From Phycisphaerae bacterium (lineage in GTDB: Bacteria > Planctomycetota > Phycisphaerae > Phycisphaerales > UBA1924): DNA of 64,000 bases. The notes under the pieces were generated by a model, which was not told where the DNA came from, ran no database searches, and worked only from the letters and a program-made list of their open reading frames with translations. The stretch is from assembly GCA_030429705.1 (NCBI GenBank), contig JAUIES010000004.1:186001-250000 (forward strand), in the 5' to 3' direction. Position numbers and translations under genes: made by a program. Numbering within the stretch: position 1 is the stretch's first letter; each line of letters starts with the position of its first letter. Shown here piece by piece: positions 5,299 to 60,720 of this stretch.

Positions 5299-6702
5299 CT
5301 AGGCATACAGCATCGCAAGATCGCGCCAGAACGAGGGATAGGTCTTTGCGACGCACTGCGGGTCTCGAATGGACACATTCGGTCGCCGCAGGCCGATCAA
5401 AGCGAGCGACATCGCCATCCGATGGTCGTCGTAGGTATCAAAAAGGACCGGGTCAGGATCTGGTTCGCCGGCTGTTGCCGCGTCGAGCCCGGTGATGCGC
5501 ATGGTGTCTTCGTCGTCGTTGACATCGGCATCGACATGAACACCGATCTTGGATAGTTCGGTCTGCAACGCTGCAATCCGGTCGCATTCTTTGACGCGAA
5601 GTGTGCGCACGCCACGCAGGATTGAAGTGCCGCTCGCGAACGCGCAGCACACCGCGAGCGACATCGCAGCATCGGGCATATTCGACATGTCCGCCATGGT
5701 CGGACCAAGTGATTCTGAGCCGCGGCATTCAATCCACTTATCTCGTCGACTGTCGCTGCGACGCACGATTGCGCCCATACGGCCGAGCAGGTCGACAAAC
5801 CCGACATCCCCCTGCAGGCTCCTGCCGTCGAGTCCGGTGACCTTGACCGTTGCGCCGGGCAAAAGGGCAGCTGCTGCCCAGAAGTAGGTCGCTCCGCTCG
5901 CGTCTGGTTCAATATCGACATGAAATGACTTGAGTCCGGGTAACACACGGATCACCCGGTTCTGTTCACTCGTGCGCACACGCACACCGATCTGGTCGAG
6001 CAGGCGAACGGTCATGTTGACATACGACGCACTGGTCGGCTCTGGACCAAGATCAAGCGTGATGCCATCAGGCAGGCACGCGCCGGTCATGGCGAGCGCG
6101 CTAATGAACTGGCTTGATTGCGTCTGCCCGAAACGGAGCAGGTTGATCCTGGGGACGCCGCTCTCTGGGGGGGTTATGCGCACCGGCGGGCAATCCATCG
6201 ACCCGAGTTCTTCGACATCGGCCCCGAGTTGAGTGAGCGCGTCGAGCAGTTCGCCGATCGGGCGCTGGCGCATGCGATCGTTGCCATCGATGGTGATGGG
6301 GGCGGGCGAGAGGAGCGCTGAAGCCGCCAGGAATCGGGTCGCGGTCCCCGCGTTGTTCAGATTGAGCGTGACGCCTTCGGGAGGAATACGCCACTTGCCG
6401 CCGACGCCGGTGATATGCAGCGTGGTGTCATCCGGTTGATCAACAATCGCTCCGAGCGTTTGAATGGCGGTCAGCATCCGCTCAGCGTCATCCGCTCCGA
6501 GCAACGGGTCGGTGATGGTGCTGGTCCCTTCTGCCAGAGCAGCCAATAGGAGCGCCCGATTCGTCAGACTCTTCGACCCCGGAGGCCGAACCGCGACATC
6601 GACAGCCGCCTGTCCCCGACGCCGCTGCAAAACCGGTATCGGTAGCGGGTTGGGTAACTCGTCGAGAGGCTGTGTCAGGAGCTGGACGGGGTCGCAAGTC
6701 AC
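5299..6702 (-). CDS. aroA: 3-phosphoshikimate 1-carboxyvinyltransferase (EPSP synthase)
   Basis: This is a 467-residue cytoplasmic enzyme of the shikimate pathway. It transfers the enolpyruvyl group of PEP to shikimate-3-phosphate. The PGSKSLTNRALLLAALAEG motif near residue 42 binds substrate. NNAGTATRFLAA corresponds to the LGNAGTAMRPL loop, and the C-terminal region has LRVKECDRIAALQTELSKIG and YDDHRMAMSLALIGLR, both standard for the family. It is slightly longer than the usual ~430 residues because of an N-terminal extension of about 30 residues (TQPLDELPNPLPIPVLQRRR), so a later start is possible, but no later ATG precedes the substrate motif. It lies between the groES-like gene and a secreted heme protein, an unusual combination for aroA. 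Confidence 0.95.
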   Translation of the reverse strand: MTCDPVQLLTQPLDELPNPLPIPVLQRRRGQAAVDVAVRPPGSKSLTNRALLLAALAEGTSTITDPLLGADDAERMLTAIQTLGAIVDQPDDTTLHITGVGGKWRIPPEGVTLNLNNAGTATRFLAASALLSPAPITIDGNDRMRQRPIGELLDALTQLGADVEELGSMDCPPVRITPPESGVPRINLLRFGQTQSSQFISALAMTGACLPDGITLDLGPEPTSASYVNMTVRLLDQIGVRVRTSEQNRVIRVLPGLKSFHVDIEPDASGATYFWAAAALLPGATVKVTGLDGRSLQGDVGFVDLLGRMGAIVRRSDSRRDKWIECRGSESLGPTMADMSNMPDAAMSLAVCCAFASGTSILRGVRTLRVKECDRIAALQTELSKIGVHVDADVNDDEDTMRITGLDAATAGEPDPDPVLFDTYDDHRMAMSLALIGLRRPNVSIRDPQCVAKTYPSFWRDLAMLYA

Positions 6703-6752: not shown

Positions 6753-7079
6753 TCAGGCGTTTGCGTCCTTGCGAAACACCGCCACGATATCTTCGACCGG
6801 GATGACGAAGAGGCGGTTGTCGCCTTCAAAGTCGACGGGGATGCTGTGTTTTGGGTTGAAGAGCACGCGGTCATATTGTTTGATCGGGTAGTCTGCGTCG
6901 TTGGCCACCTGGGCCGAGATTGCGACGACGCGACCGGTAAGCGTCGGAATCTCCATCTTGTCGGGGAGATGGATGCCGGTCTTGGTCTGCTTTTTATCTT
7001 CATCTTTACGGATGAGGACGCGGGCACCGATCGGCTCGACGGTTTCCAGTTCGGGAGTGGCTGCGCGTTTCTGGGGCAT
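6753..7079 (-). CDS. GroES-like co-chaperonin
   Basis: This 108-residue protein starts at the ATG at 7079 (MPQKRAATPELETVEPIGAR); a longer frame begins at 7127. It has the GroES beta-barrel pattern: IGARVLIRKDEDKKQTKTGIHLPDK (with the mobile-loop region at TGIHLP), then GRVVAIS, the YPIKQYDRVLFNPK strand, and RLFVIPVEDIVAVF at the C-terminus, close to the canonical ILRESDILAVI. It would cap a GroEL-type chaperonin ring. No groEL gene lies next to it, so it may be a second or specialised co-chaperonin. It heads the minus-strand run that continues into aroA 50 bases downstream. Confidence 0.75.
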   Translation of the reverse strand: MPQKRAATPELETVEPIGARVLIRKDEDKKQTKTGIHLPDKMEIPTLTGRVVAISAQVANDADYPIKQYDRVLFNPKHSIPVDFEGDNRLFVIPVEDIVAVFRKDANA

Positions 7080-7177
7080 GACAGACGATAGGGGCTCTCC
7101 CGCCGATCTGCCCGCGAACCGCAGCACCCGATCGCAGCATTGGTGCTCTGCGCGAGAACCGGCTACATTGACCCCGC

Positions 7178-9132: not shown

Positions 9133-9186
9133 GTGATCTTGAAAGGTGTGCGGGCGTGGTGTCCCCGCGAGCGATATGCTTCAAGC

Positions 9187-9714
9187 ATGATTGACCTGCG
9201 CAGTCTTATCCGTGAAGTCGAGGACTTCCCCAAACCGGGCATTTCGTACAAGGACTTCACGCCCTTGCTTGCGAACCCGGGCGCGCTCGCACTTGCGGTC
9301 GAACTGATGGCCAATCCCTACCGCGGGACCGGCATCGACCTCGTCATCGGTGCTGAGAGTCGCGGGTTTATCTTTGGGACAGCGATTGCGCAGGCACTCT
9401 CCGCGGGGTTCGTCCCCATTCGCAAGCCGGGCAAACTGCCAAGATCTGTCCATGGTGTGGATTACGCCCTTGAGTACGGCTCTGATCGGCTCGAGATTCA
9501 CTCCGACGCGCTCGGCAAGGGACAACGCGTCCTGCTTGTCGATGACCTCATGGCGACCGGCGGAACGATGCAGGCATCCTGCATGCTGACCGGCATGTGC
9601 GGAGCCGAAATCGCCGGCATCGCGGTGTTGATTGAGTTGTCGTTCCTCAACGGCCGCGACCGGTTGCGTGAATACGGCGAACTGCATTCGGTGATCAAGT
9701 ACGACGGGAAGTAA
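9187..9714 (+). CDS. apt: Adenine phosphoribosyltransferase
   Basis: This 175-residue cytoplasmic salvage enzyme converts adenine and PRPP to AMP. The start MIDLRSLIREVEDFPKPGISYKD at 9187 matches the family N-terminus, so the open frame upstream (from 9133) is not used. GAESRGFIFG, FVPIRKPGKLP and the PRPP loop LLVDDLMATGGTM are all present, as are conserved residues near the C-terminus (LIELSFLNGRDRL). Length is normal for the family. It sits at the end of a plus-strand group with two exported proteins, to which it has no evident functional link. Confidence 0.96.
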   Translation: MIDLRSLIREVEDFPKPGISYKDFTPLLANPGALALAVELMANPYRGTGIDLVIGAESRGFIFGTAIAQALSAGFVPIRKPGKLPRSVHGVDYALEYGSDRLEIHSDALGKGQRVLLVDDLMATGGTMQASCMLTGMCGAEIAGIAVLIELSFLNGRDRLREYGELHSVIKYDGK

Positions 9715-9765: not shown

Positions 9766-10398
9766 TCAACGCCTTCGGCGGATCATGCCCAACACACCAA
9801 TCATTGGCACCACGCTGAATGGCGCTGGCACGCTCGTCCAGCCAGTCAGGTGTAAGGCGGTATCATGGTCGTTGGGGGCGACGATGGATAAGAAGTCATC
9901 GATCGATGGGTAGAACGACAACCCGCCATGGATGCTGGGGTTGCTGGGTAAAAACTGTATTGGTGCGAGAACAGCGTTTGATGTCGTCATTTCAAACATG
10001 AACAACATGATCGGGTTGTCGGTGTTGGGGTTTGGCTCAACTGGATTGATGGGGTTGCGAGGAAGTTGACCACCCGATACGCCGAGGATGTCGGTGCCCG
10101 ACACGCCTGAAAACTGCCCGAACAGCTCTGACCACGACGGGAACCGAACTTGATCAACGCTGCCAACACTTGATTGACCAGCGGCGTTGATGATGTCAAT
10201 GCCGAAACCGGCCATTGCTGAATAACCTTCGACAAACAACGGGCTCTCCCACCGGCCCCACACTTCGAGTGCGTAGGTCGTGTTCGGTTGCAGCACTTCT
10301 TCCGGCCCCTCGATCCAGATGTAGCCGTTGTGCGTGGCTTGGGCACCAGCCAGACTGATGGTCAATGTGTTCAACACGACGCTCAATCGCAGGCTCAT
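9766..10398 (-). CDS. Secreted paralog 1 of a four-gene PEP-CTERM-like family
   Basis: This 210-residue protein is the most divergent member of the tandem family at 9766-12834. It keeps the core pattern TYALEVWGRW, VEGYSAMAGFGIDII, ILGVSGGQLP, NPIMLFMFE, GGLSFYPSIDDFLSIVAPND. It ends in a degraded sorting tail: VPAPF, a hydrophobic stretch, then RRRR, without the LGLGGL block. The start ATG overlaps the stop of the upstream paralog by four bases (ATGA at 10395-10398), so translation is coupled. The function is unknown; it is probably exported and cell-surface attached. Confidence 0.7.
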   Translation of the reverse strand: MSLRLSVVLNTLTISLAGAQATHNGYIWIEGPEEVLQPNTTYALEVWGRWESPLFVEGYSAMAGFGIDIINAAGQSSVGSVDQVRFPSWSELFGQFSGVSGTDILGVSGGQLPRNPINPVEPNPNTDNPIMLFMFEMTTSNAVLAPIQFLPSNPSIHGGLSFYPSIDDFLSIVAPNDHDTALHLTGWTSVPAPFSVVPMIGVLGMIRRRR

Positions 10399-11015
10399 CT
10401 GCGTCTCCTTTGCCAGCGACCGGCGAAAAAGGCCGACAGCAGCGCTCCCGACGGGGCGGGGACGATGCGTGTGGTCGTGCCAATCATCTCGAGGATGGTG
10501 CCGGGATCGTTTGGTGCGATGACAGGCGCGCCTTCAAATAAATTTGGATAGAACGACAATGCACCATTCACATTTGGATTGCCCGGCTCAAACACCATGG
10601 TGCCTTCGTTTCCAGCGACGACCTCGATGATGAACATGTGAGCAGGATGGTCATAGTTATAAGTTTCAGGTGGGGGCAAAACGACATGGAGAGGAAGTTG
10701 GCCTCCGGATATGCCGTGGACATTGGTGCCGTCTGCCACGCCGCTGTTTCCGAATTGGGCTGCCCACGGATCGATGATCGCAGCCGAGACTGCTTCGATC
10801 GATCCAGAGCCGAGCACATCGAATCCGAATCCAGCGATCACGCTTTCGCCTTCGACCCAGCTTTCGCCTGCGAATGATGCCCAGAGGTGCAGTTCAAAGG
10901 TCTCGCCCGGCTGGACCGTCGCGGGCGCTTCAGCCCGGATTGTGCAGACCTGGCTGCTCGCGGGCACGATGACCGCGCCCAACGCCAGGCTGCTGAGAGT
11001 CAGTTTGATGCCCAT
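10395..11015 (-). CDS. Secreted paralog 2 of a four-gene PEP-CTERM-like family
   Basis: This 206-residue protein has a signal peptide (LTLSSLALGAVIVPASSQ). The shared domain follows: APATVQPGETFELHLWAS, VEGESVIAGFGFDVLGSG, VHGISGGQLP, PGNPNVNGALSFYP, VIAPNDPGT. The C-terminus has VPAPSGALL, a short hydrophobic segment and RRRR, so the sorting tail is recognisable but atypical. It is cotranscribed with paralog 1, which overlaps its stop codon. No enzymatic motif is visible. The beta-rich pattern could be a cohesin-like or other immunoglobulin-like fold, which is only an inference. Confidence 0.75.
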   Translation of the reverse strand: MGIKLTLSSLALGAVIVPASSQVCTIRAEAPATVQPGETFELHLWASFAGESWVEGESVIAGFGFDVLGSGSIEAVSAAIIDPWAAQFGNSGVADGTNVHGISGGQLPLHVVLPPPETYNYDHPAHMFIIEVVAGNEGTMVFEPGNPNVNGALSFYPNLFEGAPVIAPNDPGTILEMIGTTTRIVPAPSGALLSAFFAGRWQRRRR

Positions 11016-11198
11016 GTTTGTACCCCGTGTTGCAGCCGATTGGCCCGGCGAACAGAGTCATGACGCGGGCGTGCTATTCAAACATACGACGAGTGGGGGC
11101 ATGAGCCAGCGAATGCGAGGGTTTGTGTGAAGCCTGAAGCGATCATGAGAGCAAAGGGTGCGTCATCGCGAACTGGATTTTGGCAGTGCGTGCGCAGA

Positions 11199-11227
11199 AA
11201 AAGACCCTGGTTCGAGGACCAGGGTGT
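11199..11227 (-). terminator. Rho-independent terminator after paralog 3
   Basis: A perfect 8-bp stem ACCCTGGT/ACCAGGGT (11204-11211 with 11218-11225) encloses a 6-base loop. On the minus strand it is followed by CTTTTTC. It lies about 30 bases beyond the stop of the gene ending at 11256. Confidence 0.8.
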
Positions 11228-11255
11228 TCTAATTTGTGGATGACCGATCAGTTGT

Positions 11256-11864
11256 CTATCGGCGACGACGGCTCACGAGCCCGCCCAGCCCGATCAAGGC
11301 AAGAGTCGATGCAGGTGCTGGAATGACCTGGGTGGTCGCGCCTGTGAAGTTCATGGTGGTTCCGGCATCGACACCGGCGGAAATCGAGCCGCCATCGGTT
11401 GAATCGGGGTAGAAACTCAGGCCACCGTTCGGGTTCGGGTTTCCACCGATGTAGGTGATCGAGCCGAGACCTCCAGCGGTGACTTCGAGTGAGAACAGGA
11501 ACATGGGGTTGTCCATGTTGATGCCCGGGTTGAGATTGAACACATTGGCGATCTGGCCAGCGACGATTCCCTCAACGCTCGCGCCGTTGACTGTGCCTGT
11601 GAGCACGCCGACCGCGAGATATGACGCAACATTTGCGGATGAGACTGATGCGACCGAGCCGGACCCGATGGCATCGATGCCGAATCCGGACATGGCGCTG
11701 GTTCCCTGGACCCATTCGGTTCCGGTGACTGAGCCCCAGAACTCGACCGTGAAAGTGTCACCAGCATTGACGGTGGCGGGTGCCGACGCGGAAATGGTGA
11801 AATCTTGGGCGGAGGCTGCAGCAGCAAGCCCTGTGACAGTGGCGATTGCACAAAAACGAACCAT
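11256..11864 (-). CDS. Secreted paralog 3 of a four-gene PEP-CTERM-like family
   Basis: This 202-residue protein starts at the ATG at 11864, preceded by a GAGGAGA ribosome site; the longer frame to 11981 lacks one. A signal peptide ends in AAASAQ. The shared domain reads SAPATVNAGDTFTVEFWGS, VQGTSAMSGFGIDAIGSG, FNLNPGINMDNPMFLFSLEVTAG, GNPNPNGGLSFYPDSTDGG. The tail is a good PEP-CTERM-like signal, IPAPAS then LIGLGGLV then RRRR. It has its own terminator downstream and a candidate promoter upstream, so it is probably a single-gene unit. It is closest to paralog 4. Confidence 0.85.
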   Translation of the reverse strand: MVRFCAIATVTGLAAAASAQDFTISASAPATVNAGDTFTVEFWGSVTGTEWVQGTSAMSGFGIDAIGSGSVASVSSANVASYLAVGVLTGTVNGASVEGIVAGQIANVFNLNPGINMDNPMFLFSLEVTAGGLGSITYIGGNPNPNGGLSFYPDSTDGGSISAGVDAGTTMNFTGATTQVIPAPASTLALIGLGGLVSRRRR

Positions 11865-11949
11865 GTTGTCTCTCCTCAATATATGGCTACCGATCCAAGC
11901 TGCCCATTCGATGGGCATCGCATCGGTATGCAAACTATGTCTCTGTATC

Positions 11950-11978
11950 AGATTAGACAGCGAGGGCGAAATGTGCAA
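11950..11978 (-). promoter_or_regulatory. Candidate sigma-70-type promoter for paralog 3
   Basis: On the minus strand, TTGCAC (11978-11973) and TAATCT (11955-11950) are separated by 17 bases. This would give an untranslated leader of about 80 bases before the ATG at 11864. The assignment is by eye only. Confidence 0.4.
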
Positions 11979-12160
11979 CATGTGTTTTGGATTATGCCAA
12001 TAAAATGTGAGAATAAATGTTGAAATGGCCCAGAAGTGTGCTTGAGGGGTGTGTTGAAAGTAGTTGGCGACTCGGTTTCGGGTTCAAGTCGGATGAGGCG
12101 CGTCGGGATGTGAGTGCAGGAATCGATTTGACAGCGGTCCTGGGGCGAGACAAAACGAGA

Positions 12161-12188
12161 ATGGCCTCGGTCGTGAGACCGAGGCCAT
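12161..12188 (-). terminator. Terminator hairpin after paralog 4
   Basis: A perfect 12-bp stem ATGGCCTCGGTC/GACCGAGGCCAT has a GTGA loop. It lies 28 bases beyond the stop at 12217. On the minus strand the sequence after it is TCTCGTTTTG, a modest T-rich tail. Confidence 0.7.
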
Positions 12189-12216
12189 TGAGAATCAATC
12201 GAGTCGGCGATCGCTA

Positions 12217-12834
12217 TTAGCGACGACGACGGGCGACGAGGCCGCCGAGGCCGAGGAGGGCCAATGAGGCGGGTGCCGGGACGACGCTGGTGGTCGCACC
12301 GTTGTAGGTGATGGTGGTGCCATCGTCGTTCGGGGCGATGACTGACGCACCGTCAGTGCTTGAGGGGTAGTATGAGAGGGCACCGTTGACATTGGGGTTG
12401 CCCGGGGTGTAGGTGATGTCGCCAACTTCATTGCCGGCGGTGACATCGAAGGTGAAGAGCAGGATTGGGTTGCTCAGATCGATGCCGGGGTTCAGGTTAA
12501 AGATATTGGCGATCTGGCCGCCTGAAACGCCGTTGATGTCGGCGCCGTTGACGACACCTTCGTTACCGAAGCCGGCAGCCCAGCCGGAGACGACGCCAGC
12601 GGATGTGCCAGCGACGAGGCCTGCACCGCCGGTGGCGAGTGCGTCGATACCGAAGCCAGCCATGGCGCTCACGCCATCGACGAAGCTACCGCCTGAAACG
12701 GAGCCCCACACTTCGACGGTGTAGGTGCCGCCTTGGGCGACGGTTGCCGGGGCAACCATATCGATTGAAAAGTCTTGGGCGGAAGCGGCGGCGGCGACGC
12801 CGGCGACAACAACGAGTGCAACTGCATTCTTCAT
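12217..12834 (-). CDS. Secreted paralog 4 of a four-gene PEP-CTERM-like family
   Basis: This 205-residue protein begins MKNAVALVVVAGVAAAASAQ. The start at 12834 is supported by a GAGGAG site 8 bases upstream. It has the shared domain in full: APATVAQGGTYTVEVWGS, VDGVSAMAGFGIDAL, INGVSGGQIANIFNLNPGI, NPILLFTFDVTAGN, PGNPNVNGALSYYP, VIAPNDDGTT. The tail is the best match in the array to a PEP-CTERM-type sorting signal (VPAPAS, LGLGGLV, RRRR). Such tails are normally recognised by an exosortase, none of which is encoded here. The function of the domain is unknown. Confidence 0.88.
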   Translation of the reverse strand: MKNAVALVVVAGVAAAASAQDFSIDMVAPATVAQGGTYTVEVWGSVSGGSFVDGVSAMAGFGIDALATGGAGLVAGTSAGVVSGWAAGFGNEGVVNGADINGVSGGQIANIFNLNPGIDLSNPILLFTFDVTAGNEVGDITYTPGNPNVNGALSYYPSSTDGASVIAPNDDGTTITYNGATTSVVPAPASLALLGLGGLVARRRR

Positions 12835-13448: not shown

Positions 13449-13952
13449 TCAGTCGTTGTGTGAGAGTGAAGGGGCTCGATCCAGAATTTGAAACACGAAC
13501 GGGGCTTCATTGCGATCGTTCGCCTCGAAACGCTCCTTGTGGACACAGGTCCAATCCGGACTCAGATCGGGGAATGTGGCATCGCCGACGGGCTCGAGAT
13601 CGACCGTGGTGAGATAGATTCGGCTCGCGAGCGGCAGGAAGAGCCTGTAAATCTCGCCGCCACCAACTACAAATGGCTCGAGGTCATTTTCACAGAGCGC
13701 GATCGCTTGTGTAACCGTGGACACGACGATGACGCTTTTTGGCGCCGCAAGGGATGTTTGTCGTGTTAGTACGATATTCGTTCGGTCTGGCAGAGGTGCG
13801 TTGAGTGTGTCATAAGTCTTGCGCCCCATGATGACGGCATGGCCGGTCGTGTGTTGTTTGAAAAGACGCAGATCGTCACGGAGCCTCCAGGGGAGGCGGC
13901 CTTCCACTCCTATGACGCGATTGCGTCCCATGGCTGCGATCATGCTGAGCAT
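13449..13952 (-). CDS. folA: Dihydrofolate reductase
   Basis: This 167-residue enzyme makes tetrahydrofolate from dihydrofolate with NADPH. MLSMIAAMGRNRVIGVEGRLPW at the N-terminus fits the family and favours the ATG at 13952 over the one at 13979. LRDDLRLFKQHTTGHAVIMGRKTYDTL carries the catalytic acidic region and the NADPH-binding segment. FVVGGGEIYRLFLPLASRIYLTTVD contains the GGxxIY motif. The C-terminus (HKERFEANDRNEAPFVFQILDR) is normal. It stands alone on the minus strand. Confidence 0.95.
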   Translation of the reverse strand: MLSMIAAMGRNRVIGVEGRLPWRLRDDLRLFKQHTTGHAVIMGRKTYDTLNAPLPDRTNIVLTRQTSLAAPKSVIVVSTVTQAIALCENDLEPFVVGGGEIYRLFLPLASRIYLTTVDLEPVGDATFPDLSPDWTCVHKERFEANDRNEAPFVFQILDRAPSLSHND

Positions 13953-14051
13953 GGCTGAGGATAGGGTTGCGTCATGCATTCAGGACGGGGTCTCGATAGG
14001 ATGTGTGGATTCGTGTACAGATAGTTTGAGCATGCGAAGGAGAATGAGGAC

Positions 14052-58933: not shown

Positions 58934-59872
58934 ATGGCTCAACGAATCAATGTGAAGACGATGTTTGCTCTCCTTATCACCGCGACCGGTACAGCGTGGG
59001 CGCAGGACGCCGCTCCGGTCGATCAGGCTCAGCCCGTCGCGCAACAACCGACTGAGGACAAACCTGCCATCAAGTTACTTGACGCAGGCAAAGGCGACAA
59101 GTTTGAACTGCGATATGCACCAAAAATTGGACAGTCGTTTCTTCTAACCATGTCGATGGACACATCGATGGAGTTGTCGATGGCCGGGCAACAAATGCCG
59201 GCACAAGACATTCCGACAACGACCTCAACCATTCGTATAACAACCACAAAGATCGAAGGTGACGCGATTCACTACGCAATGGTGGTTGAAAGCATGAGGG
59301 CAGAGGGGGGTCCGATGGCCGAAATGCTCAACGGCATGCTCAAGTCGATAAAGGGTGTCAAGGGCACGGGCATCATGAGCGACCGCGGCGAGAATCGATC
59401 GATGCAATTCGAAGCCCCAGCCGGCCAGAATCCGATGATGGCTCAGTCCATGTCGTCAATGGAAGACACACTGCGGAACGCAGCCACATTCCTGCCACAG
59501 GAAAAAGTAGGGGTGGGAGCCAAGTGGCAAGCAGTTTACACGATGGATGCTGACGGCATCAACATGAAGCAGACGATGGAGTACACGCTCGGTTCATTCA
59601 ACGATGGCGTGGCAAAACTGGAAGTGAAGATGACCCAGTCCGCCGAGCCGCAGTCAGTGACCAACGATCAACTGCCCCCCGGCATGACGCTTGACCTGAA
59701 GAGTCTCAAAGGAACGGGCAAGGGGACATCGACGATCAACCTTGGGTGGTTGGTCCCGTTGGAGACGGCCGGAACGAGCACCACCACCGTCGTCATGTCG
59801 GCAGCCCAGATGGGTGAGATGTCGCAGACGGTGTCAGTTAAAATCGACATGGCGAGCAAACCCGTCGAGTAA
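58934..59872 (+). CDS. Secreted DUF6263-like protein
   Basis: This is a 312-residue protein with AAAGGA 8 bases before the ATG at 58934. A signal peptide (NVKTMFALLITATGTAWAQ) is followed by a short Gln/Ala/Pro-rich linker. The main domain (KGDKFELRYAPKIGQSFLLTMSMDTSMELSMAGQQ, IRITTTKIEGDAIHYAMVVESMRAEGG, VGVGAKWQAVYTMDADGINMKQTMEYTLG) fits DUF6263-type proteins with a long beta-sheet built from Met/Thr-rich strands. The function is unknown. A terminator lies just after the stop. Confidence 0.72.
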   Translation: MAQRINVKTMFALLITATGTAWAQDAAPVDQAQPVAQQPTEDKPAIKLLDAGKGDKFELRYAPKIGQSFLLTMSMDTSMELSMAGQQMPAQDIPTTTSTIRITTTKIEGDAIHYAMVVESMRAEGGPMAEMLNGMLKSIKGVKGTGIMSDRGENRSMQFEAPAGQNPMMAQSMSSMEDTLRNAATFLPQEKVGVGAKWQAVYTMDADGINMKQTMEYTLGSFNDGVAKLEVKMTQSAEPQSVTNDQLPPGMTLDLKSLKGTGKGTSTINLGWLVPLETAGTSTTTVVMSAAQMGEMSQTVSVKIDMASKPVE

Positions 59873-59881
59873 ATCAGATTG

Positions 59882-59915
59882 ATATGGTCACCCTTTTGGG
59901 TGGCCATATTTTATC
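59882..59915 (+). terminator. Terminator after the DUF6263-like gene
   Basis: A 12-bp stem, ATATGGTCACCC with GGGTGGCCATAT (one G-T pair), has a TTTT loop and is followed by TTTATC. It starts 10 bases after the stop. Confidence 0.75.
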
Positions 59916-60075
59916 AAGTATCGAAACGGGCTCCCCGAGTCTGCGGTCACAGGCAGTGAAAAGATCTGCAGGGAATTCCTTGCAGAACATTGATCCGGTT
60001 GTACTTTATTGGGACGAACCCCTCTGTTCGGGCGGTATCGGTGGGCTCAAAGATCTATTGAAACAGGAGAGAATC

Positions 60076-60720
60076 ATGAAAAGTGCTCGTATTGCGTTAC
60101 TGGCATCAGGACTTCTGATCGCTTCCGGCGCCCAGGCTGACATCGTCCGAGTCGAAATCCTTGGTTCGGTCGATTTCAATGTCATCGGTGGCGACCACGC
60201 GGGCATCCCAAGCGGCGCACCCGTCATGATGGCGTTTGATCTGGACTCAGATGACTTTGTCGATAGCGGGTCATTCCCGACGCGCGGGTATTCCATCATT
60301 CTCTCGTCCTTCGTGATGACCGTCGGCGGCGCTGGAATCACCATGGACGATCCGCAGCCATTCGGACCTGCGTACTTCGTCCTCCGTGACAATGACCCCG
60401 CGGTCGATGGGTTCCTCATCTCCCGCAATGTTGACTTTCCGCAGCCGGTCGGTGTGCATGTCAACGGCCTGACACAAGCCCATGAACTCGACTTCCTCGC
60501 CACTTATGGCAACACCACCACGCTGTCCTCGCTCAACATTCTTGATGCGGTGGGTTCCTACGACTTCACGGGTATCAGCGTCTTTGGCTGGGGCGTTGGT
60601 CGCTTCGGCAACCATGGGGCTGAGTACATTTATGAATCGATGACCATCACCCGCGTCCCGGCTCCGGCATCGCTCGCGCTGCTCGGACTGGGTGGGTTCG
60701 CCATCCGTCGTCGTCGCTAA
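60076..60720 (+). CDS. Secreted PEP-CTERM-like protein
   Basis: This 214-residue protein starts at the ATG at 60076, with AGGAGAG upstream; the long open frame before it (from 59884) crosses the terminator and is not used. The signal peptide is ARIALLASGLLIASGAQA. The beta-rich domain has VEILGSVDFNVIGGDHAGIPSGAPVMMAFDLDSDDFVDSG and ends YIYESMTITRVPAP. The tail is RVPAPAS, LGLGGFAI, RRRR, the same sorting-signal type as in the other five such proteins. The domain differs from the four-gene family and from the protein at 44542. Confidence 0.87.
   Translation: MKSARIALLASGLLIASGAQADIVRVEILGSVDFNVIGGDHAGIPSGAPVMMAFDLDSDDFVDSGSFPTRGYSIILSSFVMTVGGAGITMDDPQPFGPAYFVLRDNDPAVDGFLISRNVDFPQPVGVHVNGLTQAHELDFLATYGNTTTLSSLNILDAVGSYDFTGISVFGWGVGRFGNHGAEYIYESMTITRVPAPASLALLGLGGFAIRRRR

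Follow-up and report, generated by a model that had tools for sequence, protein, structure and literature searches.

When did a tandem array of four paralogous genes in a planctomycete genome arise, and what might its products do? The genes, named here p4, p3, p2 and p1 in the order of transcription, lie on the minus strand of a 64,000-nucleotide stretch of a Phycisphaerae bacterium (GenBank assembly GCA_030429705.1, contig JAUIES010000004.1, positions 186,001 to 250,000), referred to below as the window, between a gene for dihydrofolate reductase (DHFR; dfr) and a convergent one for adenine phosphoribosyltransferase (apt). The original prediction, made from the letters alone, took their products for secreted proteins with PEP-CTERM-like tails that had arisen by recent local expansion and graded from intact to degraded. 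That account of expansion and degradation is mostly wrong, and the array is older than was first thought. Our best reading, which we consider probable, is that p1–p4 are exosortase-processed, stand-alone cohesin-fold proteins of the cell surface or matrix, encoded by an old, positionally conserved and fast-diverging array in the order dfr – array – apt. Throughout, g plus a number denotes a genus, G or J plus a number a genome, and L plus a number a locus.

Relatedness and age of the four copies

All four genes are intact open reading frames (ORFs) with no stops or frameshifts. As had been proposed, they encode paralogs with common motifs: their alignment contains 40 invariant columns, a similarity far above chance, and the pairwise identities over ~200 aligned residues are 60% for p3–p4, 45% for p2–p4, 40% for p2–p3, 39% for p1–p4, 36% for p1–p3 and 35% for p1–p2. 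Some motifs carry substitutions, SAMAGFGID of p4 and p1 reading SAMSGFGID in p3 and SVIAGFGFD in p2; GGQ is common to the copies except p3 (AGQ), and GNPNxNGxLS[FY]YP to the copies except p1 (SNPSIHGGLSFYP). In line with the suspected coupling of p2 and p1, their stop and start codons overlap in the sequence ATGA. p4 and p3 are spaced apart, each followed by a terminator-like hairpin, and a consensus scan finds nine terminator-like sites in the region versus 3.3 in shuffles.

A phylogeny of the window copies and relatives from four other genomes, with support given as value pairs, speaks against a recent origin. A single clade of p1–p4 is rejected by the approximately unbiased test (p-AU 7.2e-21), the four copies being interleaved with copies of other genera. 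In the nine-copy array of G040, a genome of another genus, copy 7 is the partner of p1 (100/99); p4 pairs with J022_a (89/88), and p3 groups with J022_b, G040_2 and G143_C18 (98/95); p2 sits at an open fork (91/78) and has no clear ortholog. Estimates of synonymous (dS) and nonsynonymous (dN) divergence by the NG86 method give a dS of 1.5 for p3/p4, a dN of 0.49 and a dS of ~3 for p1 and its ortholog, and, for p1, p3 and p4 against their G040 and J022 relatives, dN values of 0.20–0.49 and dS values of 0.8–3.0, the larger of which are near saturation; dS was not computable for p2 and G040_5. The substitutions in the copies that have orthologs fit purifying selection.

Close relatives of the array proteins are rare. 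At E ≤ 1e-20 they were found in 6 of 163 genomes and 4 of 74 genera of the bacterial family, window genome included, with one of the six, G213, reached only at 3.4e-22; a phylum-wide sample gave 2 of 392 genomes at E ≤ 1e-10, again including the window genome. Scoring in both searches was confined to the first candidates of each genome (19 in the family, 8 in the phylum), and misses are possible. Three distant relatives of the body are scattered in the window genome (27–32% identity) and group with relatives from G040 and G143 in a clade of their own (100/99), and a partial relative with a stop inside the match lies in G143 (L056, C25:214844-215209). In G012 (L165), two adjacent copies at the apt end of the array have identical bodies, a recent duplication at the same locus. 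Because this identical pair sits at the apt end, we did not adopt a "conveyor" model in which new copies arise at the dfr end.

The locus across the family and the kinship of its arrays

The array is positionally conserved in one family of Phycisphaerales. G040 and G216 (L099) preserve the order dfr – array – apt – groES – aroA; in G143, array – apt – groES – aroA can be followed as far as the contig end. Searches of the 163 family genomes located apt in 126 and DHFR in 48. All 48 DHFR genomes were surveyed, and 45 were kept after L202, L203 and L231, with less than 1.5 kb of flank, had been dropped; 34 of these 45 loci have same-strand tail-bearing genes directly downstream, at least two genes in 30 and one gene in four, compared with control counts of 2 (3' side, opposite strand), 0 and 1 (5' side). 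The 34 loci span ten genera, with 17 of them from g19, and DHFR-linked arrays often end at apt. The apt survey was not blind, drawing on 64 of the 126 apt genomes, namely 60 that were mostly one per genus, some already known to carry arrays, together with WIN, L053, L054 and L099; an opposite-strand tail-bearing ORF lies within 2.5 kb of the apt 3' end in 27 of the 62 loci with at least 2.5 kb of 3' flank (controls 2, 4 and 2), and four of the 27 hold one tail-bearing gene only. Tails were detected by a pattern of our own that demands P-x-P and basic residues and misses more divergent members; gene starts, and hence intergenic gaps, were set by our own rule; and some arrays end at contig ends (e.g., L135), the "first" gene being the first one visible. 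With 12 tail-bearing ORFs, the array of G255, assembled from two stretches, is the longest, and two arrays, L229 (g35) and L217 (g145), run the opposite way.

The kinship of these arrays was assessed by profile comparison of their bodies in hhalign, with signal and tail removed and with a link threshold of 80% probability; the values depend on profile order (88.5 versus 82.4 for L135). The core matches the arrays of g14, g2 and L135 (g117) at 82–97%, that of g19 at 91% and that of g145 at 97%, while g119 joins via g145 (96%, over 53 columns only) and g137 via L135 (91%). Ten genera (g1, g7, g33, g14, g2, g117, g19, g145, g119 and g137) can be chained at 80% or above, and control pairs of array bodies with other tail-bearing proteins of the window genome (689 pairs in all) reach at most 6.2%. 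A first comparison of the apt-linked arrays at 80% gave six groups and four unlinked loci, two of which were later tied to the first group; at 50%, a second group (L138, L144, L154 and L183) joins through a single 63% link.

Predicted fold and sorting signals

The bodies of p1–p4 contain no Pfam or NCBIfam domain above cut-off, which agrees with the first impression that the domain has no named family, and a profile search did not place the four proteins in different characterised families. Ten relatives from other arrays likewise have no Pfam or NCBIfam body domain above cut-off, their only above-cut-off matches being to tail models, and a sequence search of the PDB with an eight-sequence profile returned best E-values of 0.39 and 0.54, judged to be chance. 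By sequence, p1 is not a Pfam cohesin; one relative, L135, matches the Pfam cohesin PF00963 at E 0.049, below cut-off. Structure prediction gives a different view of the p1 body, whose AlphaFold2 model (pLDDT 78.1, pTM 0.80) has a cohesin as its top Foldseek match (E 5.1e-6). A comparison in VIA gave Z 13.1 and 2.6 Å over 129 residues, and among the best 50 VIA matches, 1–47 and 50 are cohesins and 48–49 are not. We take 4fl4, 3kcp and 2o4e, which are among matches 1–47, to be cohesins, and the other entries are so titled. Sequence identity to the top three is 8–12%. We therefore assign the p1 body, with fair confidence, a predicted cohesin-type β-sandwich. p1, the most divergent copy, yields the better of two cohesin-like models, in a comparison of body-only input with full-length p4 that is not like-for-like.

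The idea that these are exported exosortase-type proteins is supported by features seen by eye, namely hydrophobic N-termini, from which export would follow, and a tail consisting of P-A-P (P-x-P), a hydrophobic stretch and RRRR in all four proteins. No array member of the window genome or of G040 lacks this layout of P-x-P, hydrophobic stretch and basic end. The original contrast between canonical tails in p3 and p4 and degenerate ones in p1 and p2 stands in part. The p4 tail scores 16.9 bits with TIGR02595, above the cut-off of 16, and 18.7 with PF07589, below the cut-off of 20.7; the p3 tail falls below both cut-offs (13.1 and 14.6, respectively) and reaches 44 bits, when one extra residue is allowed, on a tail matrix that we built from 20 tails of other window-genome proteins; p1 and p2 match neither model.

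The genome (3.49 Mb in 8 contigs) has a single exosortase match (PF09721, 149 bits), and this protein carries ACSGMR, NVLR and HMIIG, corresponding to the Cys, NxxR and HxxxG motifs of exosortases given in passages of PMC1569441. Exosortase matches occur in 160 of the 163 family genomes. A second exosortase that reads a second type of tail was set aside for the window genome, G040 and G205; such an enzyme is unlikely there and possible in G255, because the PF09721 matches number one in each of the former and two in the latter. A search of the window genome with p4 at E ≤ 10 gave 36 matches, comprising the four window copies, the three scattered body relatives and 29 others; 27 of the 29 extend to the C-terminal end of p4, and the tail is therefore common in this genome. 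One such tail (PAPASLALLGLGGFAIRRRR) is found on an ORF elsewhere in the window (59842-60720, plus strand). Another tandem set of genes with exosortase-type tails lies on contig C7 at ~410.6-415.0 kb (L013:2570-7031); four of its members have a common EGFRYAT motif, and the set has no sequence link to the p1–p4 array (hhalign 0.1%). Further adjacent pairs of exosortase-tailed paralogs lie on C4 (L015, L017 and L019). Tandem duplication of exosortase-tailed genes seems to be common in the window genome.

The gradient of tails along the array, as originally described, is real and recurs in other genera. Among 45 arrays with at least two copies, the tail of the first gene has a higher score than that of the last in 25, a lower one in 2 and a level one in 18. 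Array counts are not independent, because the genomes are related; the fairer figure is the count by genus, in which 12 fall, none rise and 8 are level. In 23 apt-linked arrays of at least two copies, the tail scores below the lowest control tail in 17 of 21 genes whose start lies within 60 nt of the preceding stop codon, in 9 of 38 spaced non-lead genes and in none of 23 lead genes; in the 45-array set, 1 of 45 lead genes lies below the lowest control. Polarity that is common to other genera argues for a maintained architecture rather than the decay of one genome. The features of the locus are collected in Table 1, with the neighbouring genes named from our reading of the sequence.

Table 1. 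The array and its neighbours, in positions counted from the first letter of the window
Feature	Position	Strand	Remarks
dfr (dihydrofolate reductase)	13449..13979	-	flanks the array upstream, as in 33 other genomes
p4	12217..12834	-	205 aa; transcribed first; hydrophobic segment at the N-terminus, predicted cohesin-like body, tail PAPASLALLGLGGLVARRRR
terminator-like hairpin and T-run after p4	12160..12189	-	consensus scan
p3	11256..11864	-	202 aa; start is the ATG behind GAGGAG; tail PAPASTLALIGLGGLVSRRRR, one residue over consensus length
terminator-like hairpin and T-run after p3	11204..11225	-	consensus scan
p2	10395..11015	-	206 aa; tail PAPSGALLSAFFAGRWQRRRR, off-consensus
ATGA, p2 stop overlapping p1 start	10395..10398	-	
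p1	9766..10398	-	210 aa; tail PAPFSVVPMIGVLGMIRRRR, off-consensus; ortholog of G040 copy 7; predicted cohesin-fold body
apt (adenine phosphoribosyltransferase)	9133..9714	+	flanks the other end of the array; convergent
groES-like	6753..7127	-	apt side; two more genes between groES-like and apt
aroA-like (EPSP synthase)	5299..6702	-	apt side

Proposed function, rival readings and known systems

In the reading that we favour, each protein would be exported by its N-terminal signal and would fold into one stand-alone cohesin-type β-sandwich, as predicted for p1. Its end, with P-x-P, hydrophobic stretch and RRRR, would be cut by the single exosortase of the genome, and the protein then anchored or released. 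The products would then be diverging modules of the surface or extracellular matrix, with other secreted proteins or exopolysaccharide as their most likely binding partners. Genes at the head of an array are solitary and carry consensus tails; those further along are often packed or overlapping, with the tail layout preserved and the consensus lost.

Several observations weigh against this reading. At the level of the locus, J022 has two copies followed directly by groES and aroA, with no apt beside the array; 7 of the 17 genera with enough DHFR flank have no array there, and of these seven g27 has tail-bearing ORFs on the opposite strand; and 35 of the 62 apt loci are without an array. In the profile comparison, the core links weakly to g137 directly (54%) and to L200 of g117 (49%), and 15 of 28 apt-linked tail-bearing loci (five further groups and two single loci) are unlinked to it. 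The p1 and p2 tails give no TIGR02595 or PF07589 match at E ≤ 1, and PF00963 matches none of p1–p4 and nothing at E ≤ 10 in the window genome. As to the fold, the other four of the five p1 models are poor (pLDDT 45–56), and the model of full-length p4, made from 8 sequences, is weak (pLDDT 59.9, pTM 0.60); its eight Foldseek matches at E ≤ 0.001 comprise six cohesins and two Integrator chains, and its best VIA matches, mostly cohesins, reach Z 8.8, close to the level of chance arrangements. The predicted cohesin relation rests on models from eight sequences.

How do other explanations fare against the same evidence? A recent local expansion in the window genome, with p2 and p1 now decaying, would account for the tandem order, for the fall in identity to p4 from p3 through p2 to p1, for the off-consensus tails of p1 and p2 and for the lack of a clear p2 ortholog, and the identical pair in G012 shows that recent duplication does occur at this locus. 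It is nevertheless highly improbable: the four copies form no clade, p1, p3 and p4 have orthologs in other genera, and the p3/p4 dS is high for recent copies, while decay is at odds with the four intact ORFs, with the dN of p1 far below its dS, with the cohesin-like model of p1 and with the same polarity in other genera. Body and tail have both diverged, as was first noted. A further possibility, which we rate as possible though rather unlikely, is that the p1 and p2 tails are no longer exosortase substrates, these proteins being released or held in the membrane by the hydrophobic stretch and p3 and p4 being sorted, which would yield two classes of product with one fold. That p1 and p2 match no sorting-signal model, that packed genes so often score below the lowest control tail and that the window genome, G040 and G205 have one exosortase each, leaving no second enzyme for a second type of tail, all agree with it. 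On the other side, every array member of the window genome and G040 keeps the tail layout (across the family our detection itself demands that layout and is hence uninformative), and two exosortases are present in G255, the genome of the longest array, so that a second enzyme is possible in places.

About as doubtful is the proposal that unrelated exosortase-tailed genes collect at the dfr/apt site as at a hot spot, and that the arrays do not make up a single family from one genus to another. The six groups and four unlinked loci at 80% fit it, and at the 15 loci still unlinked to the core it is possible because no profile link exists there; the chain of ten genera, though the g119 link covers few columns, the joining of the second group at 50% and the low array–control values run counter to it. 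It is possible that the array members serve as receptors on the cell surface for secreted enzymes that bear dockerins, in a counterpart of the proposed planctosome with exosortase anchoring; as a full account, this is less likely than either of the two preceding proposals. The predicted cohesin fold is in its favour, as are dockerin_1 matches in the genome; a subtilase-like protein (our own reading) on the same contig as the window has two dockerin-type loops, one found by pattern and one by eye (L195, C8:259734), and an exosortase-tailed protein has three (L194, C4:309813). A cohesin/dockerin complex has been proposed for freshwater planctomycetes in the parts of PMC6461901 that we draw on, where the planctosome model uses a lamin-tail anchor, which differs from the tails described here. 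A cohesin fold alone is no proof of dockerin binding, and the dockerin_1 search also gives matches in 9 of 14 control genomes, above cut-off in two. The receptor role is worth testing, and no more, because the genome has dockerin-type modules and a planctomycete cohesin/dockerin complex has been proposed. Still more speculative, and in our view improbable, is the extension in which the dfr – array – apt locus generates exosortase-anchored cohesin receptors for dockerin-bearing secreted enzymes, with array position setting how firmly they are retained at the surface through consensus tails on the first, separately expressed copies and off-consensus tails on the packed later ones.

Our preferred reading, of exosortase-processed cohesin-fold proteins from an old array, finds partial precedents. 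No such array is described in the titles and abstract openings of the related literature searched. Searches on PEP-CTERM and cohesin together found nothing; those on exosortase and cohesin led to work on methanotrophic archaea that, in the portions seen, lists both domain types without joining them; and Phycisphaer and PEP-CTERM meet only in a reference list in the text returned. Limihaloglobus, a PVC member, is listed with cohesin proteins in an excerpt of PMC11557425. The closest functional precedent met is PepA of Aquincola, which the sections of PMC9850573 consulted describe as a flocculation-associated PEP-CTERM protein whose role in floc formation and bound exopolysaccharide has been tested; it is the product of a single, RpoN-dependent gene, unlike the array, and p4 is not a member of its equivalog family (NF033554, 18.4 versus a cut-off of 80).

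The array proteins resemble the PEP-CTERM/exosortase (EpsH) system in their probable export, in a short C-terminal P-x-P, hydrophobic stretch and Arg cluster, and in the presence of an exosortase with Cys, NxxR and HxxxG; they differ in having PAP rather than PEP, in p1 and p2 tails that match no model, in a tail quality that tends to drop along a tandem array, and in a body with a predicted cohesin fold. To our knowledge, few exosortase-tailed proteins have a known fold or function, and here such a family gains a predicted fold together with a possible tie to proposed planctomycete docking complexes. Cellulosomal and non-cellulosomal cohesins share the predicted fold of the p1 body, and that of p4 much less surely; the array proteins stand apart from them in their low identity, the lack of a PF00963 match, one module per protein and an exosortase-type tail. 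The planctosome of Nemodlikiaceae, as far as the consulted text of PMC6461901 goes, is likewise a case of planctomycete cohesin/dockerin proteins outside cellulose degradation, and a dockerin-bearing peptidase-like protein occurs here too; there, large multidomain proteins are joined by a lamin-tail domain, whereas here the proteins are small, single-domain array paralogs. The paralogs form a natural series with graded sorting signals in a genome with one exosortase, a ready experiment on what exosortase reads, and the locus of these putative surface proteins keeps its place while their sequences diverge, partly beyond recognition. Taken together, the array belongs to a known kind of system and combines a family unnamed in the libraries searched with a predicted fold that was not expected and a gradient of the sorting signal along the array that recurs in other genera.

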